Below are positions 6,619 through 61,915 of a stretch of 64,000 nt of DNA, in pieces. A program made the position numbers and the translations under genes. The notes beneath the pieces were generated by a model. That model saw only the letters and a program-made list of their open reading frames with translations. It was not told the origin of the DNA and made no database searches. Each line of letters opens with the position of its first letter. The stretch's first letter is position 1. This stretch comes from a virus: the IMG/VR virus record IMGVR_UViG_3300035703_000005, positions 1 to 64,000 of that record; one strand, written 5' to 3'.

Positions 6619-6647
6619 TTAAAATTAAATTATGTAGTAGATAATAA

Positions 6648-6655
6648 TATTTATT
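6648..6655 (-). promoter_or_regulatory. candidate late promoter
   Basis: AATAAATA on the minus strand, one mismatch to the T4 late consensus TATAAATA, about 30 bases ahead of ATG 6618. Sequence match only. Confidence 0.4.
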
Positions 6656-6657
6656 CA

Positions 6658-7140: not shown

Positions 7141-7156
7141 ACAAATTTACTCAAAT

Positions 7157-33660: not shown

Positions 33661-33661
33661 T

Positions 33662-41810: not shown

Positions 41811-41841
41811 TAGGTTTCTCCTTAATGGTTTAGGTTAAAGA

Positions 41842-41883
41842 GCGTTCCTTCAGTCGGCTTTTGCGTCCCATTGGGGATGAACG
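41842..41883 (-). ncRNA. glutamine-riboswitch/downstream-peptide type RNA, copy 2
   Basis: Read on the minus strand: CGTTCATC, a small hairpin CCC-AAT-GGG, GACGCAAAAGCCGACT, then GAAGGAACGC. The outer CGTTC/GAACG stem closes a three-way junction. This order of conserved bits is that of the glnA (glutamine) and downstream-peptide RNA motifs of cyanobacteria, as I remember them. 31 bases ahead of the 43-aa gene. Confidence 0.75.
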
Positions 41884-41885
41884 AT

Positions 41886-46973: not shown

Positions 46974-47365
46974 TTTTTTTGAGAAAAATTTTCAAGAGCA
47001 TCCAAGTCATCTTTCAGTTCTTTTTCTCTTTTTTGATCATGATAATAAGACCACAGAGCATTGTGAACGTCCATCAGATGATCAACCCAGAAACCTGCAG
47101 GATAGATTCCCAGTGCATCTTGAAGACCACGATGACTAGTTCCTTCACTTTCTGCCTTACACATGATATGACAGATTGCCTGAACCATGTCTAGTTTGTC
47201 TTCTTCAGAAAGCATGAAGTACTTTCCTATGGCTCGTTGTTTTGCCTCTTCATTTTTCTTCTGAAGTTCTTTGCAAGCATCAGAATTCCACCATTTTTGT
47301 AGGGCTTTACCAAGATCATTTGGTTTTTGCAATTCTTCTGAATTTACTACTGGTTCTTTATCCAT
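46970..47365 (-). CDS. conserved helical protein (131 aa)
   Basis: Start ATG 47365 (MDKEPVVNSEELQKPNDLGK), overlapping the HNH gene by eight bases. EEDKLDMVQAICHIMCKAES, SHRGLQDALGIYPAGFWVDH and LWSYYHDQKREKEL; I recall this protein in several cyanophages. Function unknown. Confidence 0.62.
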   Translation of the reverse strand: MDKEPVVNSEELQKPNDLGKALQKWWNSDACKELQKKNEEAKQRAIGKYFMLSEEDKLDMVQAICHIMCKAESEGTSHRGLQDALGIYPAGFWVDHLMDVHNALWSYYHDQKREKELKDDLDALENFSQKK

Positions 47366-47834
47366 AATGATACTGTCTCCATTCTTCAACGTTAGTTCTT
47401 TCAAGATCAAAGATCATTTTGTTTACGGGTGCTTGTGGTTTTTTCATGAGTTTCATTCCAGTATGTTCCAAAAGCATATTACCTTTTTTAGTATTGCAGG
47501 AACTACATGCAACCACAAGGTTTTCCCATGAGTCATCTCCACCTCTTGAACGAGGAAGAACGTGATCTATGGTTAGTTTAGATCTTGCACCACAATATTG
47601 GCAAGTATGATTATCCCTCTTATAAATCATAGAACGAGAAGGAGAAATATTCATAATCTTAGATAAAGGCAATTTTACATAATCTAAAAGTCGAATAACT
47701 CTACTTGAAAGAACTTGAGCTTTTTCTTTAAGGAGGAGAACTATGGCTCTTTTCCAGTTTGTAAAATTTATTGGTTCGTAACTAGAGTTTAAAACCAATA
47801 TTGTTTTGTATGGTTCTATTGGTAACTCATTCAT
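47358..47834 (-). CDS. HNH endonuclease (McrA-like)
   Basis: The zinc-finger HNH core: CQYC at 78-81, IDHVLPRSRGG with D90-H91, N105, CSSC at 110-113 and a following KKGN. N-terminal 60 residues (VLNSSYEPINFTNWKRAIVL) are the usual extension of McrA-type phage HNH proteins. It may be a free-standing homing nuclease or part of DNA processing; no terminase is adjacent. Confidence 0.88.
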   Translation of the reverse strand: MNELPIEPYKTILVLNSSYEPINFTNWKRAIVLLLKEKAQVLSSRVIRLLDYVKLPLSKIMNISPSRSMIYKRDNHTCQYCGARSKLTIDHVLPRSRGGDDSWENLVVACSSCNTKKGNMLLEHTGMKLMKKPQAPVNKMIFDLERTNVEEWRQYHYG

Positions 47835-48097: not shown

Positions 48098-48291
48098 TAA
48101 AATTCACTCCTACGTCTTGGTGGTTGGGGATTATCTTTCCATTTACAATATTCAGGAAGTTTCGACTTTTGTTCTTCAAAATATTGACAAAGTTGTGCAA
48201 CATCTGGAGGGTACTTAGGTCTATTAAGTTGATGAGTTATTGAATTAAACTGACATGTAAGATTAAATCCACATATAAGAAGATCAATCAT
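48097..48291 (-). CDS. hypothetical protein (64 aa)
   Basis: Start ATG 48291 (MIDLLICGFNLTCQFNSITH), overlapping the upstream stop. Basic end PPRRRSEF; a pair of cysteines in the first 15 residues and another pair later (LCQYF, EYCKW). Unknown function. Confidence 0.58.
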   Translation of the reverse strand: MIDLLICGFNLTCQFNSITHQLNRPKYPPDVAQLCQYFEEQKSKLPEYCKWKDNPQPPRRRSEF

Positions 48292-48947
48292 CAACACTCA
48301 TCCATTTTAATTGGTTTTGTAACTTTACGAATCATCCAAGTTCCGTCACCATTATCTACCCAATATACTTGATCACCTTCTTTAAGGTCTGCTGCTTCTA
48401 AGAGATCATCTGGGAAAACTACATAGTATTCTCCACTTAGACCATCCATCTCAACTGGAAGATGCCATTTAACTACTTTATCAATATCTCTCTGAGTTGC
48501 ACTTGGAGTTACATTGCTGTAATACTCCTCAGGATAATAGTTCTCTTCCCAGAAAGAAGTCCAAGCACCTTTACATTCTGGAGAAGGATCGTCTTTATCG
48601 CAAGTCAAAGGTTTTTTGTTGTTTGCAATGACATACTCCAGATCACTATGACCCCAAGGACGCATATAGTCATCCTTTCCTTCGTAATATTCTCTTTCTG
48701 CAAGTGATGTTTTAAGAAGTTCTTTTTGTGCAACCACAGTTTCTTTCCAAACTTTTTTAAACTTGTCATCAAATTCTTCTAAGTAATATCCAAGAAACTC
48801 ATGTGCAGCCATTGCAAGAGTTTCTGCTTTATTATACTCACTTTTCTGAATCGCATCTGCAACAGAATCAATAATCTCACGAGCAGAAACAATCTTGGAT
48901 GTTACCATCTCAAGATCATTCATCACTTCCCACGTTTTAGAGCTCAT
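48291..48947 (-). CDS. protein with C-terminal AbrB/MazE-like domain (218 aa)
   Basis: N-terminal 100 residues are helical (MVTSKIVSAREIIDSVADAI, KAETLAMAAHEFLGYYLEEF). The last 50 residues (GEYYVVFPDDLLEAADLKEG, DQVYWVDNGDGTWMIRKVTK) follow the swapped-hairpin AbrB/MazE fold used for DNA binding or dimerisation. It may be a regulator (inference). No toxin partner is adjacent. Confidence 0.62.
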   Translation of the reverse strand: MSSKTWEVMNDLEMVTSKIVSAREIIDSVADAIQKSEYNKAETLAMAAHEFLGYYLEEFDDKFKKVWKETVVAQKELLKTSLAEREYYEGKDDYMRPWGHSDLEYVIANNKKPLTCDKDDPSPECKGAWTSFWEENYYPEEYYSNVTPSATQRDIDKVVKWHLPVEMDGLSGEYYVVFPDDLLEAADLKEGDQVYWVDNGDGTWMIRKVTKPIKMDEC

Positions 48948-49131
48948 TTGCAAATTCCCCTAATGAATCTTGTTTACTTACCCATTCTTCTACTATAGAC
49001 TTAATTTGTGTATCTGTCAACCCATTCATCCAAGACCATCTTTCGTCTTTCGGATCCCACTCAAAAGCAAAAGAACCATCAGGATTTTGGATAATATTGA
49101 GACCAGAAGAATGAATATTATTATTAGTCAT
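48937..49131 (-). CDS. hypothetical protein (64 aa)
   Basis: MTNNNIHSSGLNIIQNPDGS, FAFEWDPKDERWSWMNGLTD and a helical C-terminus. First gene after the early promoter at 49186-49214. The FEWDPxDxRWSWMNGLT segment looks conserved in character. Unknown function. Confidence 0.62.
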   Translation of the reverse strand: MTNNNIHSSGLNIIQNPDGSFAFEWDPKDERWSWMNGLTDTQIKSIVEEWVSKQDSLGEFANEL

Positions 49132-49215: not shown

Positions 49216-50058
49216 ATGAACCCCGAAATATTAGATCTTCACATTACTCATAATTGCAATTTAACTTGCGAAAGTTGTTCAGATTTTACTAATAATAGTC
49301 TTTCTAAAATGTTATCATTAGAAGAGGCTAAAAATTGGATGTCTCTGTGGAATCAAAGGATAACTCCAAAAAATTTTCTTATTCTGGGAGGAGAACCTAC
49401 TCTCCACAAAGATTTGGAAAAATTTCTTTACTTGTCTAGAAAAATGTGGCCAAAAAGTAATTTAATATTAATTACTAACGGATTTTTCTTACATCTACAT
49501 GAAAATTTATGGAAAACTTTAAAAAATACTAATACAATATTATCAATTTCTTTGCATGATAATTCAAAAGAATATATGCAAAAAATAACTCAAAATTTAA
49601 TATTAGCAGAAAAATGGAATAAAGATCACGAAATAATAGTAACATGTAATAAAGAGTATGAAAAATGGAGTACTATCTATAAAGGGTATGGAGCAAACAT
49701 TTTACCCTTTGAAGACAATGATCCACAATCAAGTTGGAACAGTTGTTATATGGATGGCAAATGTTTCCAACTTCATGAGGGAAAAATTTGGAAATGTCCA
49801 CCCATTGCATATTTGCCTTTACAAAAAGAAAAATACAAAGATTTACTATCACCAAAGTGGGATCCATACTTAAAATATAAACCACTAGAATCGACTTGTA
49901 GTGACGAAGAAATAATAGAATTTTTTAATAGAAAGTGCGAATCGGTGTGCGGAATGTGTCCAGCAAATCCAATGATAAAAAATAAAGTTACAAAAAGCCC
50001 ACTAATGTCTGTTAGTGAAACTGAAAAATATTTTTCCACTCTAGAAAAACATATTTAA
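49216..50058 (+). CDS. radical SAM protein, copy A
   Basis: 280 aa. The [4Fe-4S] motif is C14, C18, C21 in HNCNLTCESC; GGEPTLHKDL (about 55-64) is the SAM-binding GGE motif. C-terminal cysteines (CPPIAYLP, and CESVCGMCPAN near 258) may bind an auxiliary cluster (SPASM-like). It is a paralogue of the gene at 54303-55091 but lies on the opposite strand. Such enzymes make peptide or sugar radical modifications. Its 3' end overlaps the next gene antisense by 47 bases. Confidence 0.85.
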   Translation: MNPEILDLHITHNCNLTCESCSDFTNNSLSKMLSLEEAKNWMSLWNQRITPKNFLILGGEPTLHKDLEKFLYLSRKMWPKSNLILITNGFFLHLHENLWKTLKNTNTILSISLHDNSKEYMQKITQNLILAEKWNKDHEIIVTCNKEYEKWSTIYKGYGANILPFEDNDPQSSWNSCYMDGKCFQLHEGKIWKCPPIAYLPLQKEKYKDLLSPKWDPYLKYKPLESTCSDEEIIEFFNRKCESVCGMCPANPMIKNKVTKSPLMSVSETEKYFSTLEKHI

Positions 50059-51217
50059 ACTCTGGTATGTTTTGAAGAAGATTTTCATTGCGTTCTATAT
50101 CAATTGCTTTATTTTTTCTCAAAAATCTTTTTACATTTTGTTCATTCATATCCAAATCTAAAATGTTTAAGATTGGTTTGAATTGATTTGATATGTCCGT
50201 TTTGTATTGTAAGTTATACTTATCGATAAAGGAAATTAATTTCTCTTTCGTTTTACCTTTAAATTCTGTTGGTAAAATATCAATTCCATATATACCAAAT
50301 TCAGTTGCACCATCTATCAAACTCAATTCAAAATTACAATAATTAAATTTCTCACTAATATATTCTATATCAGTAAGATATTGAATAATTTCAGGTAATC
50401 TAAAAACATTTAAACAAGATACAGTAATATTTGTAGATCTATTAAATTTTTGATTTGCAAGAATTTTTAAATTTTTATCTACTATTTTCCAGTTAGTACC
50501 TTTTCTAATATACTCTGCTCTATTTTCTATTTCATCTATGCTAACAAAAACTGTTAATTTGTTAGGATTCCATTGATTCCAATAATCTAATACGTTTTTA
50601 TTCTTATAAGATAAAATTGAAATATTTGTATTGTACCAAAGTTCTATATTAGTTTTTTTCTTTTCTATTAATTTTTGAAGTAATTCATATTGTTCATCCA
50701 TAAGGAGAGTTTCGCCACCAGCAAACTCTATTAACTCCAAACAGTCAATATTATCTTCTATAAATTTATCAATATCCAAATTTTCAGCATGTTCTAATAT
50801 TTTTCCAGTAAAAGAACTACTCAATCTTTCCGAACACATCCTGCATTTAAAATTACACTTATTGCTAATTTTAAAATCCCATCCTTTAAATTTTATTGTT
50901 TTTAAAGATCCATCTTTATTGGTATTTTTTAATATAGTAGGAAATGAGTCTTTAAAAAAATTATTATATTTCTCTCTTAAACTAATTCCATCCAACTTTT
51001 CAACATTTTTACAAGAAAGACACGAATCAGGTAGATCATCTTTCAATAAAGATAATCTAAAATTATTCATTTTTTCTCCATTCCAAATTTCATGCAGAGA
51101 ATTATTTTTTACATTACCTAATGACAAATCGTTAGCACAACATGGAGTAACTATTCCATCTGGAAAAATTTCTAAGTATATCCAGGGAACTATGCACTTA
51201 GGATAAGTATTTTTCAT
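50012..51217 (-). CDS. twitch-domain radical SAM protein
   Basis: 401 aa. Radical SAM motif C121, C125, C128 in SNKCNFKCRMCS, GGE motif in LIEFAGGETLL. N-terminal cysteines C8, C26, C27, C66 and C69 (CIVPW, PCC, CLSC) are the twitch/SPASM-like auxiliary cluster that here precedes the core, a domain order typical of this family. A biosynthetic radical enzyme, reaction unknown. First gene of the amidinotransferase cluster in gene-number order; last in transcription. Confidence 0.85.
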   Translation of the reverse strand: MKNTYPKCIVPWIYLEIFPDGIVTPCCANDLSLGNVKNNSLHEIWNGEKMNNFRLSLLKDDLPDSCLSCKNVEKLDGISLREKYNNFFKDSFPTILKNTNKDGSLKTIKFKGWDFKISNKCNFKCRMCSERLSSSFTGKILEHAENLDIDKFIEDNIDCLELIEFAGGETLLMDEQYELLQKLIEKKKTNIELWYNTNISILSYKNKNVLDYWNQWNPNKLTVFVSIDEIENRAEYIRKGTNWKIVDKNLKILANQKFNRSTNITVSCLNVFRLPEIIQYLTDIEYISEKFNYCNFELSLIDGATEFGIYGIDILPTEFKGKTKEKLISFIDKYNLQYKTDISNQFKPILNILDLDMNEQNVKRFLRKNKAIDIERNENLLQNIPEFKYVFLEWKNIFQFH

Positions 51218-51219
51218 AA

Positions 51220-52182
51220 TTATCCTCTTTCAAGATCCAAAGTAACGCAATGAAAACAACCACTCAATGTTCTTGTTTGTCTCATTGGAAGCATAATGCA
51301 TTCGATGTCATATTTTTCTAATTCTTTTCGTGTAGGTTCCTGATGTTTTTCGAGAGCAACTAAATTGGGATTAATACTAAAAAGATTCATATTACACCAA
51401 GGCGAACAGTTATTGTATCCAGGGTAATACCCAACATCAACTGGTTCTGGGCACCAGATTATATCCCATGTTTTAAATGGACCTGGTAAATCTTCTTTAC
51501 TTTTAATTCTTGAAGGGTTTGCAAGTAATAATCCTTCTCTTAGAAATGCTACCGTAGTGTCAATGTGCATATAACTATAAACACCTTGAAGTAAATGTAC
51601 TTTTATTTCAGGTCCTACTAAAGATTGAAGCAACTCTGCACCCTTTATATTACCACTATTTGATACCAAATATAATAAGTCATCGTTGGCTCTGATAATA
51701 TTAGCTGCATCAAATGAAGGTGAATGTTCAGTTAAGGCTAGAATTTCCTTATTTCCTAAACAATCCTCATTATATAATTCATCATCATAACTACAAGAAA
51801 GTGGAATCAAATTTTCGAAGTGATGTGCAATAGATCCAAAATTATATTTCCTGGATTTTAAAGGCATTGGAGCAGCAAAAGTTTTTCCCCCATGAACAAA
51901 TACGCAATCTCTTGGGCAAAAATTATAGTAGGGTGTTGCCTCTCGATGAGGTCTCAATACTTCCACACCTTCTTGTTCTAACACTTTAACAAAAATTTCT
52001 AAATCTTCGTTAGCTTCATCAATAACCTGTTTTGGATATAATCCGGATTTCACATCCGAAACATCTTTCCTATCAGCGTAATTAATAAATCTGAGAGAAT
52101 TATCTATTTCAGGAACTCTAGCATAATCAGCAATACCAACTATAACTTTTTTTAATTTATCCCATTCATTAGTACTGTTCAT
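51220..52182 (-). CDS. amidinotransferase (glycine/inosamine type)
   Basis: 320 aa with all the blocks of L-arginine:glycine and inosamine-phosphate amidinotransferases: CPRDCVFVHG, SPSFDAANIIRAND with D158, MHIDTTVAFL with H206, LFSINPNLVALEKHQEPTRK, and LSGCFHCVTLDLER with catalytic C312. The enzyme moves an amidino group from arginine to an amine; in antibiotic pathways the acceptor is an aminocyclitol sugar, elsewhere glycine. Coupled to a sugar-nucleotide epimerase (ATGA), suggesting an aminosugar acceptor (inference). Rare in phages as far as I know. Confidence 0.88.
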   Translation of the reverse strand: MNSTNEWDKLKKVIVGIADYARVPEIDNSLRFINYADRKDVSDVKSGLYPKQVIDEANEDLEIFVKVLEQEGVEVLRPHREATPYYNFCPRDCVFVHGGKTFAAPMPLKSRKYNFGSIAHHFENLIPLSCSYDDELYNEDCLGNKEILALTEHSPSFDAANIIRANDDLLYLVSNSGNIKGAELLQSLVGPEIKVHLLQGVYSYMHIDTTVAFLREGLLLANPSRIKSKEDLPGPFKTWDIIWCPEPVDVGYYPGYNNCSPWCNMNLFSINPNLVALEKHQEPTRKELEKYDIECIMLPMRQTRTLSGCFHCVTLDLERG

Positions 52183-53066
52183 TTTAAATTATCAATAATT
52201 TTTTTTACGCCTTGTTTAAAGTTAATTGGAGAATAATTTGGATAATAATTTAAAAGTTTTGTTAAATCAGGAACTCTTCTTTTAGCACTACCACGTCTAC
52301 CTTCAATTAACTGATAATTTGGATAATCATGCCCCAATAAAGTTCCAATTATTTTAGAAACTTCTAAAGAACTCAGTTCTTCATTACTTCCGATATTTAT
52401 TGTTTCATGAATTGCACATTTTTCTACACAAATAATTGTCGATTCAATAGCATCTTCGATATAAGTATAACATCTTGTTTCATTTGGACCAATAACTTTA
52501 TAAATTCCAAGTTTATGATTATCAATTTGATCATAGACTATATGGCCACTTTTTGTTTCTGGTCCATAAACATTGAAATACCTAATAATTACCCAAGGCA
52601 AATCACTGTTATGCAAATAATTTTCTCCTACCATTTTAGAAATTTTATAACTCCAACGAGGATTTGAAAGATCATCAACTTCAACAGAGTTATTTTCATA
52701 ACAAATTTCGGAATGAGACATTATTTCACTACTACTAGCATAAACAATTTTTTTTAAATTTGTACACTTTTTTGCAAACTCAAATATATTGAGATCTACT
52801 CTTGTATTATTTGAAATAACTTCATTTGGTCTTTCATAAAAATTAGTTGTTCCATTAATGGCTGCAAGATGATAAATTACATCAACATTATCAGGTAAAA
52901 TTGCAGTAGATTTAGAAAGATCTGTTTTTAAAAAAATGTGAGATTTAGGAATAGTATTTGATCTAGACATATTATCTACGGCAATTACATAATGACCTTT
53001 ATCATTAAGTTGTTTACATAATTCTGATCCAATAAGACCGGCAGCTCCCGTCACCAAGATATTCAT
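52179..53066 (-). CDS. NAD-dependent sugar epimerase/dehydratase (extended SDR)
   Basis: GAAGLIGS at 7-14 is the NAD-binding glycine motif, YKISK at 140-144 the catalytic Tyr/Lys, with SSSEI supplying the catalytic Ser. 295 aa. Looks like the UDP-sugar decarboxylase/epimerase branch (VIIRYFNVYGP, then NIGSNEE). Overlaps both neighbours by four bases, so it forms one operon with the compact dehydrogenase and the amidinotransferase. Confidence 0.87.
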   Translation of the reverse strand: MNILVTGAAGLIGSELCKQLNDKGHYVIAVDNMSRSNTIPKSHIFLKTDLSKSTAILPDNVDVIYHLAAINGTTNFYERPNEVISNNTRVDLNIFEFAKKCTNLKKIVYASSSEIMSHSEICYENNSVEVDDLSNPRWSYKISKMVGENYLHNSDLPWVIIRYFNVYGPETKSGHIVYDQIDNHKLGIYKVIGPNETRCYTYIEDAIESTIICVEKCAIHETINIGSNEELSSLEVSKIIGTLLGHDYPNYQLIEGRRGSAKRRVPDLTKLLNYYPNYSPINFKQGVKKIIDNLK

Positions 53067-53803
53067 TTATCTTCTCTAACTGTAATTTTTAATTTGGAGT
53101 TATCATTTTTTATTGCTTTAAATAATTCAACATCTCCAAAAATATCAATCATAAAATCAATATCCTTTGGCAAACACTTTCCACCATATCCTCTTAGGTT
53201 ATCATTTACTTCAAGATACGATTGGCCATTTTTGGACTTATTGAATGCGTTTAATAAATTATTATAATTTACGTCATATTTTTTACACATATTATAGTAA
53301 TGATTTGCAAAAACAACTTTCATTGCATGATAATTATTTCGCATCATCTTTAAAAGTTCCAACTCGACAAATTCAAGTTTTCTGAGTTTATAATTAAATC
53401 TATCAAAATTAACCAACAAACTATTATCACAGTTTGTCGCATAAAACATTCTCTTACAATTGAGGGAATCTTCCAGAGAATATCTTTCCCTCAAAAATTC
53501 TGGAAGATATGTCAATGGATTTTTAATTTTTTCCTGCAAATTATTGAAAAATCCCGGAATTACTGTACTTCTAACCACAATTTCAATTGTAGGATTTAAT
53601 GAAGAAATATTTAAACAAAGAGACTCCAATTCTTCAATATTTTGTTGAGTATTAGTTGGAATGCAAACAAAAACTAAATCACAATTAGAAATATCTTCTA
53701 AACTAGTATCTAAAAAAATATCGTGTATAATTATACTTTCATCGGGAAAAAGAGCTTTTTTTGTTGCCTTTCCAACTATTCCATATCCAACAATTCCGAT
53801 CAT
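53063..53803 (-). CDS. compact UDP-sugar dehydrogenase-like protein
   Basis: 246 aa. GIVGYGIVGKA is the NAD-binding loop, YLPEFLRERYS the substrate-binding block, K152 and N157 (LKMMRNNYHA) the catalytic pair, and GGKCLPKD carries the catalytic Cys210. Normal UDP-glucose or UDP-ManNAc dehydrogenases have 400 or more residues; the C-terminal sugar-binding domain is almost entirely missing here. Either a minimal enzyme or one that works with a partner. Confidence 0.8.
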   Translation of the reverse strand: MIGIVGYGIVGKATKKALFPDESIIIHDIFLDTSLEDISNCDLVFVCIPTNTQQNIEELESLCLNISSLNPTIEIVVRSTVIPGFFNNLQEKIKNPLTYLPEFLRERYSLEDSLNCKRMFYATNCDNSLLVNFDRFNYKLRKLEFVELELLKMMRNNYHAMKVVFANHYYNMCKKYDVNYNNLLNAFNKSKNGQSYLEVNDNLRGYGGKCLPKDIDFMIDIFGDVELFKAIKNDNSKLKITVREDK

Positions 53804-54306
53804 TTTAAAACTCCTGTTATTTGAATTGCATATCTATCTTCTAGACTAAGATTATAAAAAGCATGTGTTTTCAAATAATCCCACCCAAAACAATCTCCAG
53901 GATTCCAATTTGTAAAAAAATTATCCTCAATTTGAAGTATTTGGCCAGATATACCCTCTTCTAACATTACAACATATCTAACTATTTTGTCAATAGGTAC
54001 ATTATAAATTTTAATGTATTTTTCAAAAATATCTATATGCAAAGGCAGATATTGTCCAGGTTTAAAGTAATTGATAGCTACTGCAACATTATTCAAAAAA
54101 TTAAATTGTGGAATAATGTATTCAAATACACAATCTGGCATAAAACTAGGTTGATGACAATTATAAAGAGTCATATGATTTTCACTATGACCAGAATCTA
54201 TATATTGATTCATTAATTTTTGGTCTTTGTGTGTAGTAAGAAAATAATCGAGGTGGTGAAAATCAGATATTTCCCACTTTGGTGTTATATTAAACTTTTT
54301 GATCAT
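53800..54306 (-). CDS. 2OG-Fe(II) oxygenase-like (Asp/Asn hydroxylase type)
   Basis: GQYLPLHIDIFEKY gives H90 and D92, DYLKTHAFYNLSLEDRYA gives H148 and R158. The spacing fits the beta-hydroxylase branch. 168 aa, single domain. Coupled to both neighbours in the operon between a radical SAM gene and the dehydrogenase, so it probably acts on the same product. Confidence 0.72.
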   Translation of the reverse strand: MIKKFNITPKWEISDFHHLDYFLTTHKDQKLMNQYIDSGHSENHMTLYNCHQPSFMPDCVFEYIIPQFNFLNNVAVAINYFKPGQYLPLHIDIFEKYIKIYNVPIDKIVRYVVMLEEGISGQILQIEDNFFTNWNPGDCFGWDYLKTHAFYNLSLEDRYAIQITGVLK

Positions 54307-55091
54307 TTTCTTAATAATGGGGAATTTTTCTTTAAGGATTTTTTATTAGAAGGGCACATAGAACAAAATTTTTCTGCACCTTTATCAAAAAAATCTTCCA
54401 ATTCTTTGTCTGTACAATTTGGGGACAATGGGACATATTCCAAATAAGGATCCCATTTTTCGGATATATCATACTTTTCTTTCATCATAGGAAGAAATGC
54501 TAGTGGAGCACATTTCCATATTTTTCCTTGATGTAATTGAAAACATATTTGACCTGTTGGACAATTTTCCCAACTTTGTTTAGGATTATTATCTTCAAAA
54601 GGCATTATATCTTTACCATATCCCAAGTAAACTTGATTCCAATCTTTTATAGAATTATAAATTTTAATCTTAACTCCTTTGGATTTCCAGTCATTTATTG
54701 TTAATATTTTTTTACGTATTAATTGCAAATATGTCGGGTCATTACTATGAATAGAAATTGACAATGTAATATCATTTTTAATAATATCTTCAAATATTTC
54801 CGAATGCAAATGAATTAGAGTAAGATTGGTCACAATTTCTATATTAGAATTTGGCCACATTTTCCTAGTCAAATAACAATACTCTTTCAAATTTTTATGC
54901 AAAAATGGTTCACCACCCAATATTCCAATATTATCTGGAATTAATCTTTCATTCCAATAAGACATCCACAATTCACACTCGTTTAAACTAACATGAGTAT
55001 CAAATCCATGATTCATAAAATGCGAACAACTATCACAAGTAAAGTTACATTTATGTGTAATGTGAATATCTAAATTTGGAATTCTTTTCAT
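54303..55091 (-). CDS. radical SAM protein, copy B
   Basis: Start ATG 55091 (MKRIPNLDIHITHKCNFTCD), coupled by ATGA to the DegT-like gene. [4Fe-4S] cysteines C15, C19, C22; GGEPFLHKNL; C-terminal cysteines in CAPLAFLP and FCSMCPSN. Strong overall similarity to the plus-strand gene at 49216-50058 (ILGGEP, RKMWPNSN, LPFEDN/MPFEDN, WDPYL). Confidence 0.85.
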   Translation of the reverse strand: MKRIPNLDIHITHKCNFTCDSCSHFMNHGFDTHVSLNECELWMSYWNERLIPDNIGILGGEPFLHKNLKEYCYLTRKMWPNSNIEIVTNLTLIHLHSEIFEDIIKNDITLSISIHSNDPTYLQLIRKKILTINDWKSKGVKIKIYNSIKDWNQVYLGYGKDIMPFEDNNPKQSWENCPTGQICFQLHQGKIWKCAPLAFLPMMKEKYDISEKWDPYLEYVPLSPNCTDKELEDFFDKGAEKFCSMCPSNKKSLKKNSPLLRK

Positions 55092-55678
55092 TTTTGAAAT
55101 ACAGACATATTGGGTAAGTAAGGATAATCCCTGTGGCTCCATTTTTTACCGGGAATTTTTTTCCGCTCATTTAGTAATTCAATTCCCGTTTTGGCCACCT
55201 CTGGAGTCATGTAGTAATGATACCCAATAGTATCTATGTCTTGTTCAGCCCATGGACGACTAAGATCACGACCATCATAAGACATTTTTTTTAATTCACG
55301 ATAATCATTTTTATCAGACAAAAGAATCATTCCACCTCTACCCAAAGGTAAATGTTTTTTAAATTGAAAACTTAAACACATAAAAGTATTTGAGATATAT
55401 GTGTTTTCCCCCCAAAAAACTGCTGCATCAATAATATTAGTGTTACCTAAACGATAATAATTATCCCACTCTTCGTTTTTCCAATTCCATCTCAATCCCA
55501 ATTTCATTAAAGTCATGGGAACTGAAATGTATGTTTGTGTAGGTATCGTTATATCATTACACCCAGTATATCGTAAACACAATTCTAATGCATGAGTACA
55601 AGAATCAGTGGCTACCCCATATGGGGAACCAAAAAATTCGGATACTTTTTGTTCAAAATCAGATACTAAATGAAACAT
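55088..55678 (-). CDS. DegT/DnrJ/EryC1-type aminotransferase, compact
   Basis: 196 aa. VSEFFGSPYGVATDSCTHAL (PLP phosphate site), IPTQTYISVPMTLMKLG, and SFQFKKHLPLGRGGMILLSD with the Schiff-base Lys107 or 108. Full-length members have about 370 residues; the C-terminal domain is mostly missing. Sugar aminotransferases of this family make amino sugars that amidinotransferases can use. Possibly a minimal or degraded enzyme. Confidence 0.78.
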   Translation of the reverse strand: MFHLVSDFEQKVSEFFGSPYGVATDSCTHALELCLRYTGCNDITIPTQTYISVPMTLMKLGLRWNWKNEEWDNYYRLGNTNIIDAAVFWGENTYISNTFMCLSFQFKKHLPLGRGGMILLSDKNDYRELKKMSYDGRDLSRPWAEQDIDTIGYHYYMTPEVAKTGIELLNERKKIPGKKWSHRDYPYLPNMSVFQK

Positions 55679-55697
55679 ATATTATACTCATCCACGA

Positions 55698-56585
55698 TTA
55701 TTGATTTTCCAATTCATCAATATTATTAACATTTATTATAAAGTCATTCGGTTTGCCATAAAGAAAAAAATCTTCCAAAGAATAAGAATCTCTAAATTTT
55801 TTCCACCATAAATTTACAGCTCTATTAGTAAAATGTAGTCCAGGAAAGTCAGATGTTCTAATTATATTCTTAGTATAACTTCCAATTGTATTACTTTGAG
55901 CTATTAATGGCAAACAATAAGTAACTCCAGAATGGCCCATGATATAGTCTATGGTTACATTTGGGTGATGTCTTATAGCATGATGATACCATTTGGGTTC
56001 TAACAATCTACTACATTGAGTCCATTGGAAATTAGAAACTCTTTTTGTCAAATCAAATTTCCCATCTGTAGTGATACGTTTAATAATTTTTTCAACATAA
56101 GATCTAGTTACTAAAGCACCTCCCATTGAATGTTTTGCCAAAATTCTATGCAAAAAACATGGAATCATTGCATCATTTTCAAAAGACAGTAAAATACAAT
56201 CCCAATCATATGGAATAATATTCATTAAATATTGCCAATCAAAGTGCCAGTAATCAATAAAACTAAGATCATAGTCATCTTCCATTAATAAAACATACTG
56301 ATCATTAGTTGTTTCTAACCAATGTTTTATTAATTCCAAATAAGTCAAAGTAATAGCGCAATGTATGATGTGTAACGACTTTCTAGGGTCTATATCGACA
56401 TCATTTAAAATTAATTTATCTTTCCATTCAGAAAAGTTATGAAGTTGATATTTAGAAGTAGAATATCGAGTAAAAGTTTTTATTTTATATTTTTCATATT
56501 GGGTTTCAGTATATTCTCTTCTATCTGGTCTTTCATCCAGATTTAAATAAATGATGGGAGGTAATCCTTTTAATTTATCAGTCAT
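55698..56585 (-). CDS. GT25-like glycosyltransferase, copy 1
   Basis: IIYLNLDERPDRREYTETQY at the N-terminus and YVLLMEDDYDL (acidic triad) about 96-106 are the marks of LPS-type family 25 transferases (YxINLxxxxxR, LxxEDD). 295 aa. A relative lies at 57407-58228. Transfers a sugar to a lipid, protein or glycan acceptor; acceptor unknown. Confidence 0.75.
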   Translation of the reverse strand: MTDKLKGLPPIIYLNLDERPDRREYTETQYEKYKIKTFTRYSTSKYQLHNFSEWKDKLILNDVDIDPRKSLHIIHCAITLTYLELIKHWLETTNDQYVLLMEDDYDLSFIDYWHFDWQYLMNIIPYDWDCILLSFENDAMIPCFLHRILAKHSMGGALVTRSYVEKIIKRITTDGKFDLTKRVSNFQWTQCSRLLEPKWYHHAIRHHPNVTIDYIMGHSGVTYCLPLIAQSNTIGSYTKNIIRTSDFPGLHFTNRAVNLWWKKFRDSYSLEDFFLYGKPNDFIINVNNIDELENQ

Positions 56586-56587
56586 GT

Positions 56588-57397
56588 TTATAATTTAGGA
56601 AGAGCTATATAATTTTGAGAGTCTATTTTATTTACGTTCCACTCATAAAGTCTTTTAACAACAATATCTTCAACTCTACCATAAATTTGTCTATTTTTTT
56701 TATTATGTTCTAAAGCTAAAAGAACCGATATTTTTTTATCTAAAATATCAGTATCGTATTTTTCGAAAAGGTCTTCTCTTATTTTTTGTTCATATTCTTC
56801 CATTTCTGGATTATTATAAGTTCCCTCAAAATTTTCAACTCTTTTTGAATATGGATGTGGTAAATGAATAACTCTATTACTTTGTGGTATTATCTTTTTT
56901 ATAGACATTCCAGATAATTTTAATCTACCCAAAATCTCATCATCTTCAAAGGAATAATACTTACCCATTTTTTCATTATATCCATTAACACGCAAAAAAT
57001 CTTTTTTTCTGATGTATAACAATCCAAATATTCCTCTATATAAATCATTTTTTATATGATTAATTCCAGAAATACATGAATTTTCTTCAAGTATATAATC
57101 TTCAAAAAAATTATAATAGGGATTTAATATATGATCACAGTCAAGTTTTAATAATTTATCTGAAGACGCTACATCTGCGGCTAAGTTTAAAGGTTGAGGT
57201 TGATTAAAATACTTTTGATTAGGAACTGTTATTATTTTTATTCTCTTATCTAAAGAAGTCAAATGATTGATAGGAACATCGGAACTCCAATCGACAATAA
57301 TAATTTCAGATACTTCTGGAAACATTATCCAAGTATTTAAAGAAATAATTAAAGATTTTTCTCTATTCTTACAAGCGCAAATTATACTTACAGACAT
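56588..57397 (-). CDS. family 2 glycosyltransferase
   Basis: GT-A fold: VSIICACKNREKSLIISLNT, LKLDCDHIL with the DxD motif, and FLRVNGYNEKMGKYYSFEDD (galactosyltransferase-C element). 269 aa. Two bases separate it from the GT25 gene. Confidence 0.85.
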   Translation of the reverse strand: MSVSIICACKNREKSLIISLNTWIMFPEVSEIIIVDWSSDVPINHLTSLDKRIKIITVPNQKYFNQPQPLNLAADVASSDKLLKLDCDHILNPYYNFFEDYILEENSCISGINHIKNDLYRGIFGLLYIRKKDFLRVNGYNEKMGKYYSFEDDEILGRLKLSGMSIKKIIPQSNRVIHLPHPYSKRVENFEGTYNNPEMEEYEQKIREDLFEKYDTDILDKKISVLLALEHNKKNRQIYGRVEDIVVKRLYEWNVNKIDSQNYIALPKL

Positions 57398-57406
57398 AAT
57401 ATATTA

Positions 57407-58228
57407 TTAATAAACTATAGGGATCATAAGATTTTTTCTTTGATATGAATCTAGTGAAAATAAATCGGTTAATGAAAATTTATCACTTTCTTCTTTCCAC
57501 CATTTTAATGTAAAATAATCAGATTTTTTGGCCATTGAATTTATAGGTTCTTTGTAACCATTACTACTAACGCTGGAAGTAGTGATAAACAGGGGAAATG
57601 AATATGTGATTCCTATTTCATAGGGAACAAAGTCTGCAGATTGGTAGTGATAAATTGGCCAATTATCTCCATATCCATAGTTTTCATACAATTGAAATTT
57701 TCCATTTACATAGTGCATTTCAATTAATTTTTTTGCATATCTCCTATTAATTAAATAACAAGTTGCAGAATGATTATTCCGTGTCCTTTTCGTAAGACCC
57801 ATTGGTACATATTTTTCACCTATAATATGCAACTGTACACAATCCCAGTTAATCGGTAAGTGTTGCTCAAAATATTTCCAATTAAAATTCCAATATTTGG
57901 TTGTTAAAAATGAAAGATCATCTTCCAAAATTAAACAAGTTTCTGACACAGAGTTGTTATACCAATCAACTATACTCTGTAGTTGATTAATTAAAATCGA
58001 TAAACAACTTATTTTGTTATTTATTTTTTTTATTAATAATTTATTCTTCCATTCATTAAAATTTTGAGGAGAGTGTTTATTAGCAGACACTCTCACATAA
58101 TCAGTTATACCAAATATGTTGAATTGATTTTCAATGTATTCTTTTCTATCTGTCCTTTCATCAAGATTTAAATATCTAATATGGGGAATGCCCTTGAGTT
58201 TATATTTGATATTTTCAACATCAGACAT
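57407..58228 (-). CDS. GT25-like glycosyltransferase, copy 2
   Basis: Start ATG 58228 (MSDVENIKYKLKGIPHIRYL), overlapping the upstream stop by eight bases. IRYLNLDERTDRKEYIENQF and TCLILEDDLSF mirror copy 1 at 55698. Lower similarity in the second half suggests different acceptors. Confidence 0.73.
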   Translation of the reverse strand: MSDVENIKYKLKGIPHIRYLNLDERTDRKEYIENQFNIFGITDYVRVSANKHSPQNFNEWKNKLLIKKINNKISCLSILINQLQSIVDWYNNSVSETCLILEDDLSFLTTKYWNFNWKYFEQHLPINWDCVQLHIIGEKYVPMGLTKRTRNNHSATCYLINRRYAKKLIEMHYVNGKFQLYENYGYGDNWPIYHYQSADFVPYEIGITYSFPLFITTSSVSSNGYKEPINSMAKKSDYFTLKWWKEESDKFSLTDLFSLDSYQRKNLMIPIVY

Positions 58229-59423
58229 ACCATGTAATAACAGAATATCTAGTTCCTTCAATAACAGGCATTATTTCGTGAGGGTACATAAAATTAGAAG
58301 GAAATACAATTACAGATCCAACACTGTTACGAATCATCATTTCTCTATCAAAAAATGCAAATTCACCTCCCACATAGTCATCATTTAAAGTTAGAGAACA
58401 GGATACACTTCTTTGTTGATGAATAAACGAATCTGTATGTTGAGTGTAAAATTGTCCAGATTCATACATCAATAAGTCATATCCTGTATCAATACTGGGA
58501 GAAAATTCTAAAAATTCTTTTGAATACATTTCAACTACTTTTAATAGTTGTTGGTGAAGTTCTACATCTATAAATTTTCTAACTTCGTAATTTTTATCTA
58601 TGATATTAGAATCAGAAAGTTGAATAACAGAACAATTTCTAATATTAGTATTTAAAATTCCATCCCCAACTAAAGTTTTATTCCATTCTTGACTATTTTT
58701 GTATTCTTGCAATATTTTATTACAAAGATCTGCAGACACAACATTATCATAAATTTTAATAAAATCTTCCAACTTTCTGGTAGATTTTAATGTGATTGAA
58801 GAAATATGTTGATCCGATTTTACAATACTATTTTCTTCTTTAGTTGTAGTTTTATTTTCTTTTTTATCAGACTCAATCAAATTCGATTCTTTTTCTTTAT
58901 CAAAATAAGCATAAGAACACTCACCACGACTTCTTACATAATGCAAGAAAACCTGTGAATAGTAACTACCTTTATACTCTTCTCTCCAGTGTGGTGCAAT
59001 ACGTCCAAGATAGACCATTGCATCACCTGGATTTAAACTAACAAATTTTTTTTCTTTTTGAGGAGTTTCGATCCAGATTGGCCATGGATAATCACCATCA
59101 AGATGTAATGTCAATGAAATTTCACAGGCATCTCTGTCAACATGATTCTCCAGAACAGATCCCTCCTTATATACTCTTGCGTAAGAATAGGTGGGAAGAA
59201 CAGTTTCCTCAATTAATGTAGATACTTCGGGAGTTTTTTCACAAAGTAATTCCAAAAAAGAAATATGATTATATATTGAATGTGAATTTGGAGATTGATC
59301 ATCTCCTGATAAATTTTCTTTTTCACAATAAAGTTTAAATTCATCGGACAAAATTTTAGATCTTTCGGGAGAAATAAAATTAGGAATGATCAAATAATTA
59401 TTTTCAATTAGTTTATTATTCAT
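58221..59423 (-). CDS. two-domain 2OG-Fe(II) oxygenase fusion
   Basis: 400 aa. The N-terminal domain has H94 and D96 (LENHVDRDACEI) and H145 (IAPHWREEY). A charged linker follows (about 173-205). The C-terminal domain is prolyl-4-hydroxylase-like, with H329 and D331 (YTQHTDSF), H382 (YPHEIMP) and R392 (GTRYSVITWY). Both sites look complete, except that no clear Arg is placed for 2OG in the first. Two linked hydroxylation steps or a tandem substrate are possible. Confidence 0.82.
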   Translation of the reverse strand: MNNKLIENNYLIIPNFISPERSKILSDEFKLYCEKENLSGDDQSPNSHSIYNHISFLELLCEKTPEVSTLIEETVLPTYSYARVYKEGSVLENHVDRDACEISLTLHLDGDYPWPIWIETPQKEKKFVSLNPGDAMVYLGRIAPHWREEYKGSYYSQVFLHYVRSRGECSYAYFDKEKESNLIESDKKENKTTTKEENSIVKSDQHISSITLKSTRKLEDFIKIYDNVVSADLCNKILQEYKNSQEWNKTLVGDGILNTNIRNCSVIQLSDSNIIDKNYEVRKFIDVELHQQLLKVVEMYSKEFLEFSPSIDTGYDLLMYESGQFYTQHTDSFIHQQRSVSCSLTLNDDYVGGEFAFFDREMMIRNSVGSVIVFPSNFMYPHEIMPVIEGTRYSVITWYV

Positions 59424-59451: not shown

Positions 59452-59874
59452 TCAAAGATCTGCAAGAAGTTTTTCAATATCAAAATCCATATCTCCATAA
59501 ACAGCTGCCATTGCAGCTTCTTCTTCTTCTTTTAATCTCTGGGCTTCGGCTTCTGCTGCTGCAATTCTTTCTTCTTCTGCAAGTTTAGATTTTTCCCAAA
59601 GAAAAATTGATCTTTCATAAATTCCTAGTTCTTTAATTATAAAATTTGGAACTGTTTTTTTGAATTCAATTTCTCCATAAGCTTCATCTAATCCAAAACC
59701 ATACTCGCCCTCTTCATCGGGATCACCATACCATTGTAACGCATGAAATTTTCCCCAAGTTTTTAGATCATAACCTTCTATCCAACTAAGATCATCAAAT
59801 TCACTCAGATCTGCATAGTATCCAATGCCATCTTTAATGATGAGATTATCATCTCTGATTATTGTCAATCTCAT
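59452..59874 (-). CDS. conserved protein with acidic coiled-coil tail (140 aa)
   Basis: N-terminal 95 residues are beta-rich (MRLTIIRDDNLIIKDGIGYY, ADLSEFDDLSWIEGYDLKTW, KFHALQWYGDPDEEGEYGFG), then a Glu/Ala helix (EERIAAAEAEAQRLKEEEEA). I recall this family in cyanophage genomes close to fibre genes. Unknown function; may be a fibre assembly chaperone (inference). Confidence 0.62.
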   Translation of the reverse strand: MRLTIIRDDNLIIKDGIGYYADLSEFDDLSWIEGYDLKTWGKFHALQWYGDPDEEGEYGFGLDEAYGEIEFKKTVPNFIIKELGIYERSIFLWEKSKLAEEERIAAAEAEAQRLKEEEEAAMAAVYGDMDFDIEKLLADL

Positions 59875-60211
59875 TATTTTCTTCTCCTTTTAAAATATTT
59901 TGATTAGTTAAAGGGGTAACATTAACTGGAAGAATTTGTTGTTGCATAAGGCCTTGAATATATAGTTCTTTATTTTCTTCGTTAGCTTTTACAACTTCAT
60001 TTCTAAATGATTCTACAGCTGCTGCAGTAGATCTTTGTTGTTGAGAATTTTCAATAGTCATTATGGGAAGCCAAGTTATAGCACAACCCCATTCGTCAAT
60101 GTCTTCACCAGTGTTTGGATTCATTCCACGGACTCTCATAAACCAAGAACACTTTAGTCCAATACAATCTTTTTTAATAAGAGGACAAAATTTACCTTGT
60201 TCTAATTTCAT
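59849..60211 (-). CDS. conserved Cys-containing phage protein (120 aa)
   Basis: Start ATG 60211 (MKLEQGKFCPLIKKDCIGLK). C9, C16, C21 and C42 (CSWF, WGCAIT) could bind metal. DEWGCAITWLPIMTIENSQQ is followed by a Gln-rich helix. I recall strong conservation of this protein in marine phages, with no known function. Overlaps the next gene by 26 bases. Confidence 0.66.
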   Translation of the reverse strand: MKLEQGKFCPLIKKDCIGLKCSWFMRVRGMNPNTGEDIDEWGCAITWLPIMTIENSQQQRSTAAAVESFRNEVVKANEENKELYIQGLMQQQILPVNVTPLTNQNILKGEENNEIDNNQR

Positions 60212-60246
60212 AAAATAAAAAATATCTAGATTTAGTATAACACAAA

Positions 60247-60774
60247 TTATGCAAAAGTACAATATATTACGTTAATATATTGTACTCTAAAATCTACAGA
60301 AGTATTAAGGGGACCATTAGCTGAAGTAAAAGTAACTGGATGAGTGTGAGATCCACTATTACCATTATTACCAGTATTACCACCATTAGCAACTCTAGTA
60401 ACACTTCCAAAAGTAGGAGAAGGAGATCCAGTTTGAGCATTACCTCCAGAATTAGCTGGATGAGCATGTTGTACCATGGTATTTACATCAATGGTATTCG
60501 CATTAGCTGCAAGTCCAGAAATTGATACAGGGACATTAGCAGTTACGGGTACAGAAATAAGAGTATTCGTAAATACATTTGTTCCGCCTGAACCTGCTCC
60601 AGTTCCACTAACTACTCTTAACGTTTTATCATTATGAGTTGTTACTATAGACCATCCAGTTGGTGCTGATGCCTGATAAAAAACGACAGGTGTTGTTTGT
60701 GGAAAAATACCATATTTGGAATTTAATGAAGTAGAGTCACTAAAAGTTATTCCAGTGCTTGTTAATACTGCCAT
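60247..60774 (-). CDS. fibre-tip/collar-like protein, copy 1
   Basis: MAVLTSTGITFSDSTSLNSK, then PTGWSIVTTHNDKTLRVVSG, QHAHPANSGGN and SHTHPVTFTSANGP. The paired His motifs resemble the metal sites in trimeric tips of gp12 (short tail fibre) and tail-collar proteins; VDFRVQYINVIYCTFA is the conserved ending. Late promoter at 60793-60799. Confidence 0.75.
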   Translation of the reverse strand: MAVLTSTGITFSDSTSLNSKYGIFPQTTPVVFYQASAPTGWSIVTTHNDKTLRVVSGTGAGSGGTNVFTNTLISVPVTANVPVSISGLAANANTIDVNTMVQHAHPANSGGNAQTGSPSPTFGSVTRVANGGNTGNNGNSGSHTHPVTFTSANGPLNTSVDFRVQYINVIYCTFA

Positions 60775-60792
60775 TTTTTTATAATTTTATTT

Positions 60793-60799
60793 TATTTAG
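60793..60799 (-). promoter_or_regulatory. late promoter of fibre-tip copy 1
   Basis: CTAAATA, about 19 bases ahead of ATG 60774, overlapping the end of copy 2. Confidence 0.55.
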
Positions 60800-61332
60800 T
60801 TTAAAGTGCAGATAATAACATCTACATATTGGACCCTAAAATCAAGAGTAGTTGCACCAGGGCCATTGGCTGAAGAAAAAGTAACTGGATGAGAGTGAGA
60901 TCCACTATTACCATAGTTACCTGTACTATTTCCAGGAGCTGTACCACCCTGAGATCCTGACGCAGGGCTGGCACCACCAGCACCTACGTTTCCTCCAGAA
61001 TTTAGTGGATGAGCATGTTGAGGTACTGTATTAACACTTAAAGTTGTACCTCCAGCAGATAATCCGGAAATTGATACTGGAACATTAGCACTCACTGGGC
61101 GACTAGCAAATGTTCCAGAAAAAGTATTTGTTCCAGCAGCAGTTCCACCACTGGTGGTATTATTAACCACTCTCAATGCTTTATCATTTTGGGTAGTTAC
61201 TTGAGTCCATCCAGTTGGAGCAGCAGACCTTATAAAAACCATAGGAGTTGACTGAGGAATGATTCCATATTTGGAATTTAAAGTCCCTCCGCCACTACCA
61301 AAGATTATTCCAGTGCTTGTTAATACTGCCAT
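60796..61332 (-). CDS. fibre-tip/collar-like protein, copy 2
   Basis: 178 aa, same layout as copy 1: MAVLTSTGIIFGSGGGTLNS, QHAHPLNSGGN, SHSHPVTFSSANGP, LDFRVQYVDVIICTLN. The central Gly/Ser loop between the two His motifs is the most variable part among the copies. Confidence 0.75.
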   Translation of the reverse strand: MAVLTSTGIIFGSGGGTLNSKYGIIPQSTPMVFIRSAAPTGWTQVTTQNDKALRVVNNTTSGGTAAGTNTFSGTFASRPVSANVPVSISGLSAGGTTLSVNTVPQHAHPLNSGGNVGAGGASPASGSQGGTAPGNSTGNYGNSGSHSHPVTFSSANGPGATTLDFRVQYVDVIICTLN

Positions 61333-61359
61333 TTTATGACACTTTTTCGATTATTTTCA

Positions 61360-61367
61360 TATTTATC
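61360..61367 (-). promoter_or_regulatory. late promoter of fibre-tip copy 2
   Basis: GATAAATA, 28 bases ahead of ATG 61332. Confidence 0.5.
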
Positions 61368-61884
61368 CGTTAAAACTACATATAATAATGTCTACATATT
61401 GAACTCTGAAGTCAAGAGTTGTGCTCCATGGACCACTAGCTGATGTGAATGATGCTGGATGACCATGACCTCCACTATTACCATAGTTACCTGTACTATT
61501 TCCAGGAGCAACACATACTACACCTCCAGAAGAACCTCCGGTATTACCTCCATTATTTGCAGGATGTCCATGTATAGGTATAGTATTAACACTTAAAGTT
61601 GTACCTTGAACAGTTAATCCACTAATTGATACAGGAACATTAGCACTTATAGATCTATTAGTAAACGTATTACTAAAAGCATTAGTTCCACCTGCGCCTC
61701 CGCCGGTTCCACTAACAACTCTTAATATTTTATCATTTTGAGTAGTTACTTGAGTCCAATTTGTTGGAGCAGTAGATCTATAAAACAAAGAAACTGTACC
61801 AGAAGGTGCAAAAAAAGACGATCTTGCAGATACACTAGTTCCATCATTAAAATTTATTCCAGCAGCAGTTAATGTAGCAGGCAT
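61363..61884 (-). CDS. fibre-tip/collar-like protein, copy 3
   Basis: 173 aa: MPATLTAAGINFNDGTSVSA, IPIHGHPANNGGN, GGHGHPASFTSASGP, LDFRVQYVDIIICSFNG. Same His arrangement but HGH in place of HAH/HTH. It is the most diverged at the N-terminus. Confidence 0.75.
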   Translation of the reverse strand: MPATLTAAGINFNDGTSVSARSSFFAPSGTVSLFYRSTAPTNWTQVTTQNDKILRVVSGTGGGAGGTNAFSNTFTNRSISANVPVSISGLTVQGTTLSVNTIPIHGHPANNGGNTGGSSGGVVCVAPGNSTGNYGNSGGHGHPASFTSASGPWSTTLDFRVQYVDIIICSFNG

Positions 61885-61907
61885 TTATATAAAAGATATT
61901 TTTTTAT

Positions 61908-61915
61908 TATTTATA
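61908..61915 (-). promoter_or_regulatory. late promoter of fibre-tip copy 3
   Basis: An exact TATAAATA on the minus strand, 24 bases ahead of ATG 61884. Confidence 0.65.

Follow-up and report, generated by a model that had tools for sequence, protein, structure and literature searches.

A compact set of genes in a T4-like cyanophage genome appears to encode the synthesis and transfer of a guanidino sugar. The genes lie at positions 49216–59423 of the window, by which we mean the whole 64,000-nucleotide stretch analysed here (positions 1 to 64,000 of the IMG/VR virus record IMGVR_UViG_3300035703_000005, which spans 248,835 bases), and include an arginine amidinotransferase (AMT), a compact DegT-type sugar aminotransferase, a small 2-oxoglutarate (2OG) oxygenase designated ox2 and GT25-like glycosyltransferases. 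Because the record carries psbD and psbA (74.5–78.7 kb, 10–15 kb past the window), it is attributed to a cyanophage. We consider it fairly likely that the product is a guanidino-sugar glycan and, given such a glycan, lean towards a virion protein as its acceptor. Our best explanation of the whole, namely, a cassette that is expressed late and both makes and transfers the guanidino sugar, is put forward with modest confidence.

A scan of IMG/VR with the AMT recovered at least 316 relatives, the best 80 of which were compared together with the window and Synechococcus phage S-SCSM2R; clustering at 95% identity yielded 47 AMT lineages, for which neighbours were counted within 8.5 kb. The AMT is accompanied by GT25 in 46/47 lineages, by DegT in 43/47 and by ox2 in 38/47, followed by OX1-type 2OG oxygenases (29/47), the small conserved genes g137 (27/47) and g140 (25/47) and fibre-like genes (21/47). 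The optional neighbours are NodU-like carbamoyltransferases (17/47), radical SAM proteins A/C (15/47) and B (4/47), and the UGD and EPI families of dehydrogenase-like and epimerase-like proteins (11/47 each). The reproducible core consists of GT25, ox2, the compact DegT and the AMT, with the radical SAM proteins, epimerase, dehydrogenase and carbamoyltransferase being optional. Since the same neighbours surround the AMT in 47 lineages, the set exceeds what would be expected by chance, in agreement with an earlier reading of this DNA from its letters alone (hereafter, the original prediction), which scattered homologues in relatives would have refuted. The gene set also fits its proposal that the island builds and attaches an amidino-amino sugar, although the radical SAM proteins, epimerase and dehydrogenase that it counted in are accessories, and the alternative of radical peptide chemistry as the core activity does not agree with the rarity of the radical SAM genes. 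The usual order is OX1-GT25-GT25-DegT-ox2-AMT, with insertions, and variant loci hold carbamoyltransferase, sulfotransferase-like and nucleotide-sugar genes. The NodU-like carbamoyltransferase lies near the AMT at 11814–13394 of locus L026 and at 31 further loci, and the glycan may also be carbamoylated.

Reciprocal seeding found the AMT in 47/80 loci retrieved with DegT and 61/80 retrieved with ox2. After deduplication, DegT loci of 8 kb or longer divide into two settings, 35 with the AMT and 20 without it. The former hold ox2 (31/35), no hexapeptide acyltransferase (0/35) and, in 6/35 cases, a GDP-mannose dehydratase, whereas the latter hold ox2 in 1/20 cases, the acyltransferase in 6/20, a cupin in 9/20 and the dehydratase in 11/20. 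The dehydratase resembles gmd (375 bits, a little under the cut-off of 415) and the acyltransferase NeuD. The cupin (family f72) was considered as an FdtA-type ketoisomerase, an identity that was rejected because the PDB matches were spurious; its below-cut-off NCBIfam match is to the WbuC cupin, and we refer to it as a cupin. AMT loci without ox2 often contain a fused SpoChoClust 2OG oxygenase, a WbuC-like cupin or a GDP-mannose dehydratase. We read the two settings as variants of one logic, whereby a keto sugar is formed and aminated by DegT, and the new amine then receives an acyl cap or, via the AMT, an amidino cap. The AMT is nearly always found with DegT, whereas DegT often occurs without the AMT, which fits an order of amination before amidination.

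The AMT matches StrB1, the inosamine-phosphate amidinotransferase (1bwd), over its full length (E 7e-59 over residues 4–319), and is closer to it than to the other solved structures HsvA (3e-37), AGAT (3e-32) and SxtG (3e-31); searches of Pfam and NCBIfam gave no match. Residues D158, H206 and C312, which align with FDAAN, HVDST and FHC, respectively, are invariant across relatives, so that both full-length pentein homology and the Asp-His-Cys catalytic residues place the protein in the StrB1/AGAT family. With 63–92% identity to the window copy across relatives, the AMT is among the best-conserved parts of the cassette. A creatine or glycine reading was rejected because StrB1 is nearer than AGAT; the enzyme of a 2024 paper on ocean auxiliary metabolic genes is GAMT, a member of a different family. 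Another amidinotransferase-like protein, divergent and about 300 aa long, is encoded at 33354–34247 of locus L243, at about 5.9–6.8 kb of genome G001 and at 178.5–179.3 kb of genome G003; its gene adjoins KdsA/KdsB in S-SCSM2R and has a weak match in the genome studied here (G000, 147928–148098).

The compact DegT comprises 196 aa, with relatives of like length. It retains the core fold, the invariant pyridoxal phosphate (PLP) lysine K108 and the invariant cofactor aspartate D84 of the DegT/StrS family and departs from the family's two-domain size of about 370 aa. The best Foldseek matches of its model (pLDDT 93) are all sugar aminotransferases, namely, perosamine synthase, ArnB and BtrR. In ox2, for which neither Pfam nor NCBIfam gave a family match, the fold and the HxD..H..R motif identify a 2OG oxygenase: H90, D92, H148 and R158 are invariant, and the model (pLDDT 95.6) is a jelly roll matching prolyl hydroxylase (P4H) and AspH. 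Structure prediction, which the original prediction had called for, thus recovered a sugar-aminotransferase core and a 2OG jelly roll, and the gene families it had named are real, being encoded by long, tightly packed open reading frames (ORFs) with Pfam, PHROG and structure matches.

We propose that a sugar position would proceed from hydroxyl to ketone, amine and guanidine before transfer by GT25. Conversion of sugar positions into ketones by 2OG enzymes is known from aminoglycoside pathways, and ox2 could be the ketone former here; the keto sugar may also be provided or modified by accessory enzymes (dehydrogenase, SDR or radical SAM). The compact DegT, judging from its fold and catalytic residues, would aminate this keto sugar in a PLP-dependent manner, and the AMT, with its family and catalytic triad, would transfer the amidino group of arginine to the resulting amine. 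The tandem GT25/GT2 enzymes would then extend a growing oligosaccharide with this sugar, the likeliest acceptor being the collar/fibre-like virion protein at the head of the operon, possibly hydroxylated beforehand by OX1.

The connection to the virion is suggested by the arrangement of the genes. The functional unit reaches past 49216–59423, and the operon begins with three collar/fibre-like genes (60247–61884). At least two HxH motifs were found in 95/95 members of the fibre-like family, compared with 28/2155 other ORFs. The homologues in S-SCSM1 are annotated as 'tail fiber protein (virion protein)', their presence in the measured virion proteome of that phage not being confirmed, and the S-SCSM2R homologue is annotated as 'baseplate protein'. 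The late promoter published for cyanophages is NATAAATA (PMC2984593). Its ATAAATA motif, which is rarer in the window than expected (16 vs 38 occurrences), lies 24–28 bases ahead of two of the fibre-like genes of the window. Among deduplicated loci, the late motif precedes 44/50 fibre-like genes vs 54/1194 others, and no AMT, ox2 or OX1-family gene. Between the fibre gene and the AMT, 237/240 junctions measure 40 bases or less. The sequence hence has the features of a T4-type late operon, with NATAAATA just ahead of the first gene and tightly spaced co-directional genes behind it. In loci with attached fibre genes, the simplest reading is that the cassette forms the tail of a tight operon that would be transcribed late together with a virion protein. 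The original prediction had left decoration of the virion and remodelling of host lipopolysaccharide (LPS) side by side; of the two, virion decoration is favoured by the late-promoter operon that unites the cassette with fibre genes.

Several observations weigh against the proposed pathway or its link to the virion. The fibre genes adjoin the cassette in just 21 of the 47 lineages, and in S-SCSM2R the fibre homologue is 45 kb distant, with no late motif just ahead of the cassette. The genome itself holds another glycan cluster, which belongs to the type commonly termed LPS. The AMT family includes users of glycine and polyamines, and the sequence does not reveal which acceptor the AMT would take. 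DegT is absent from a few AMT loci (L041, L055 and L061). Finally, the Fisher values separating the two DegT settings (6e-10 for ox2 and 0.001 for the acyltransferase) are descriptive only, the loci being related and their independence overstated.

Remodelling of the host LPS or capsule remains the main rival, albeit a rather unlikely one. Under this scenario, the guanidino sugar would be added to lipid-linked sugars or the LPS core, blocking superinfecting phages or grazers, a role already suggested for P-SSM2. GT25 is a family of LPS glycosyltransferases, present in the LPS-type clusters of P-SSM2 and S-SRM01; the conserved second cluster in the same genome is also LPS-type, and S-SCSM2R carries KdsA/KdsB together with the second amidinotransferase-like gene. 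However, the cassette encodes no flippase, polymerase, ligase or other membrane protein, and it shares a late-promoter operon with fibre genes. A direct post-translational modification, in which AMT, radical SAM and 2OG enzymes act on fibre-protein residues without any sugar step, would also account for the shared operon and for the SPASM/twitch-like cysteines of the radical SAM proteins; we regard it as improbable, given that most loci lack radical SAM genes whereas GT25 and the sugar-type DegT are nearly always present (46/47 and 43/47).

Two further explanations place the product in the cytosol or on the DNA. StrB1 as the nearest match of the AMT, BtrR among the DegT matches and a gene annotated BtrN near the amidinotransferase of Campylobacter phage CP20 are compatible with the synthesis, as for streptomycin, of a cytosolic guanidino sugar or aminocyclitol that serves as a metabolite, signal or inhibitor. 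Such a small molecule seems, nevertheless, a poor candidate: several glycosyltransferases are present in almost every locus, no exporter is encoded, and inositol-phosphate synthase, the first enzyme of the aminocyclitol route, was not found in three genomes, for which reason that route was rejected. Least probable is DNA hypermodification, with sugars or guanidino groups placed on phage bases. DNA glycosylation does occur in phages, and the radical SAM proteins are weakly QueE-like; yet neither thymidylate synthase/dCMP hydroxymethylase nor the QueC family was found in the present genome, G003 or S-SCSM2R, the search yielding only ThyX, and hypermodification of the pyrimidine or 7-deazaguanine kind was rejected because neither a ThyA-type hydroxymethylase nor QueC was found.

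The guanidino-sugar core and its linkage to fibre genes appear to be undescribed, whereas LPS-type clusters and the AMT/radical SAM module of Campylobacter phages are already known; to this extent, the claim of the original prediction that the island represents an undescribed system holds for the combination, in the literature searched, and not for these two parts. No description of the cassette was found in that literature, most subscription journals being outside the search. LPS-type clusters have long been known in cyanophages (PMC2984593, PMC3037559, PMC9602691), and those of the large T4-like cyanophages P-SSM2, S-SSM7 and S-SRM01 share with the cassette GT25, nucleotide-sugar enzymes and 2OG/phytanoyl-type oxygenases. 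By contrast, none of the genes listed for the stretches viewed in P-SSM2 and S-SRM01 is an amidinotransferase, DegT or radical SAM gene; the GT25 shared with the P-SSM2 LPS region is 26% identical, and the present genome has a separate LPS-type cluster of its own at 86–97 kb. A search of 50,697 phage records found the AMT only in S-SCSM2R and Campylobacter phages, and neither AMT nor DegT was found in any Synechococcus or Prochlorococcus isolate other than S-SCSM2R. S-SCSM2R (PQ898602), for which no paper was found, has syntenic OX1, GT25, DegT, radical SAM, ox2, AMT (76% identity) and GT2 genes, but its block lacks UGD, EPI and radical SAM B, and its fibre homologue lies elsewhere. In Campylobacter phages, an exchangeable module that joins radical SAM genes to an amidinotransferase was reported in 2010, with no function assigned (PMC2853527). 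This module, carried by CP220/CPt10, also contains glycosyltransferase-like genes, but its AMT is about 25% identical and its radical SAM genes are more numerous; a profile search of CP220 with DegT and ox2 found no homologue.

The order of dehydrogenation, DegT amination and amidino transfer parallels that in streptomycin and butirosin biosynthesis (StrB1, StsC/BtrR, BtrN), with the differences that here there is no inositol route, the DegT is half-size and GT25-like transferases follow. The UGD-like, SDR and DegT trio of the window resembles the Ugd-ArnA-ArnB pathway of 4-amino-4-deoxy-L-arabinose (L-Ara4N), including the Foldseek match to ArnB; however, the UGD and DegT of the window lack C-terminal domains, most relatives lack the trio, and the SDR is nearest to 6zl6 and UXS, with ArnA at just 5e-11, so that the trio is analogous, with no member at the equivalog level. 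A 2OG oxygenase tied to sugar genes is also a feature of the sporadic carbohydrate cluster (NCBIfam SpoChoClust), a fused homologue of which occurs in some AMT loci lacking ox2, whereas ox2 itself has no family match.

If the proposed pathway is correct, phages furnish a glycan with a guanidino sugar of their own making, a kind of group known elsewhere chiefly from aminoglycoside antibiotics. A viral gene that is widespread (present in at least 316 IMG/VR stretches) and automatically annotated as glycine or inosamine amidinotransferase would thereby gain a function, some of the puzzlingly numerous 2OG oxygenases of cyanophages would be tied to glycan chemistry, and the half-size DegT and UGD would offer minimal enzyme models. 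The isolate S-SCSM2R carries the block, so the reading is open to experiment. More tentatively, many aquatic T4-like phages might make a guanidino sugar de novo by a new route, using a small 2OG oxygenase, a half-size DegT and an amidinotransferase to turn a sugar hydroxyl into a guanidine, and glycosylate their own HxH-type fibre tips; the resulting phage-encoded cationic glycan would serve in adsorption or in evading host defences. We regard this generalization as doubtful.

The features of the locus are listed in Table 1. The island contains 12 long ORFs, 11 of them on the minus strand, rather than the 11 genes, ten on the minus strand, given in the original prediction, whose own list sums to 12. 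Nearly all junctions are overlaps or gaps below 30 bases, and the sole plus-strand gene, radical SAM A, has a convergent 47-bp overlap with the end of radical SAM B. No other 10-kb stretch of the window is as AT-rich as the island (GC content 28.4% vs 34.4% elsewhere). A megablast search with the island found no match among phage records, and, with regard to a bacterial origin, one pattern-limited scan returned just two relatives, both actinobacterial (35–36%). Scans for sigma-70 promoters and terminators gave hits not above shuffled sequence, and none of the cassette proteins has a likely membrane segment.

Table 1. Features of the cassette and the adjoining fibre-like genes (window positions)
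Feature	Position	Strand	Evidence
Radical SAM A, paralogue of C, convergent; accessory	49216..50058	+	PF04055 2e-11
Radical SAM B, N-terminal SPASM/twitch type; rare accessory	50012..51217	-	NF033640 (N_Twi_rSAM)
AMT, StrB1/AGAT-type arginine amidinotransferase	51220..52182	-	1bwd match; D158, H206, C312 invariant
SDR nucleotide-sugar dehydratase/decarboxylase/epimerase-like protein (EPI); optional	52179..53066	-	PF01370 2e-38
Compact UDP-sugar dehydrogenase-like protein (UGD); optional	53063..53803	-	PF00984; TIGR03026 below cut-off
ox2, 2OG-Fe(II) oxygenase, core; proposed ketone former	53800..54306	-	motif and model
Radical SAM C with C-terminal cysteines; optional	54303..55142	-	PF04055; CxxxCxxC invariant
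Compact DegT/StrS-type PLP sugar aminotransferase, C-terminal domain missing	55088..55678	-	PF01041 7.5e-15; Foldseek
GT25-like glycosyltransferase a	55698..56585	-	PHROG 2835 1e-31; cyanophage relatives annotated GT25
GT2/GT7C-like glycosyltransferase	56588..57397	-	PF02709 1.4e-8
GT25-like glycosyltransferase b	57407..58246	-	PHROG 2835 2e-42; PF01755 sub-threshold; conserved EDD
OX1, 2OG-Fe(II) oxygenase with extra N-terminal domain	58221..59423	-	PF13640 1.6e-15; HTD motif
g140, small conserved protein	59452..59874	-	25/47 AMT lineages; no PHROG or Pfam family
g137, small conserved protein	59849..60262	-	27/47 AMT lineages; no PHROG
Collar/fibre-like protein, paralogue	60247..60774	-	family membership
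Collar/fibre-like protein, paralogue	60796..61332	-	family membership
Late-promoter-like GATAAATA, upstream of second fibre-like gene	61360..61367	-	motif scan
Collar/fibre-like virion protein, two HxH motifs	61363..61884	-	annotated homologues
Late-promoter-like (T)ATAAATA, upstream of first fibre-like gene	61907..61915	-	matches NATAAATA

Both GT25-like proteins are assigned from PHROG 2835, annotated cyanophage relatives and the sub-threshold PF01755 match; the gathering score of PF01755 was not reached (15.2 bits vs 24 for one protein and no match for the other), so that 'GT25-like' is the appropriate designation. OX1 also matches PHROG 3531 and 61, the PHROG family carrying the label ferrochelatase. 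The listed ORF of g137 begins at TTG, and its true start is probably the internal ATG (MKLEQ...); g140 is a possible fibre-assembly factor.

The radical SAM proteins have the CxxxCxxC motif and the PF04055 match that define the family. A is 46% identical to C, and the A/C family has conserved C-terminal cysteines, its nearest solved relatives including MoaA, viperins and SPASM/twitch enzymes; B scores 297.7 bits against N_Twi_rSAM, for which the cut-off is 170. Identity with BtrN was rejected, the match being weak (4m7s, E 0.03) and absent from the profile search. The UGD keeps the GYGGKC motif and lacks the C-terminal domain; together with DegT, it makes two compacted nucleotide-sugar enzymes within one cassette. 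The SDR protein has YxxxK and SSE, and its nearest PDB entries are 6zl6, UXS1 and ArnA.

Other features of the genome deserve mention. An HNH endonuclease at 47358–47834 is 79–99% conserved in many relatives, in which the cassette genes are just 50–80% identical, and forms a stable flank beside a fast-changing island. The protein encoded at 48291–48953 has a MazE-like C-terminus, and its homologues, ranging from about 150 to 370 aa, track the cassette closely. A sulfotransferase-like gene at 3748–4515, in a GC-poor stretch (26% at 4–6 kb), perhaps marks a further glycan island, and a glutamine riboswitch aptamer (glnA leader, 38.6 bits) lies at 41839–41885. Beyond the window, the second glycan cluster (86312–96557, locus L245) is far more conserved and includes GT10, GT11, GT1, GT2, UGDH and two SDRs, with a wcaG RNA ahead; it is syntenic with S-SCSM2R (65–87%) and LPS-type, as in P-SSM2. 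In S-SCSM1, gene 245 (5880–7145 of locus L247) encodes a collar/fibre protein into which a long repeat rich in Arg, Pro and Gln is inserted; it is flanked by seven 2OG oxygenase genes and is a possible hydroxylation substrate.

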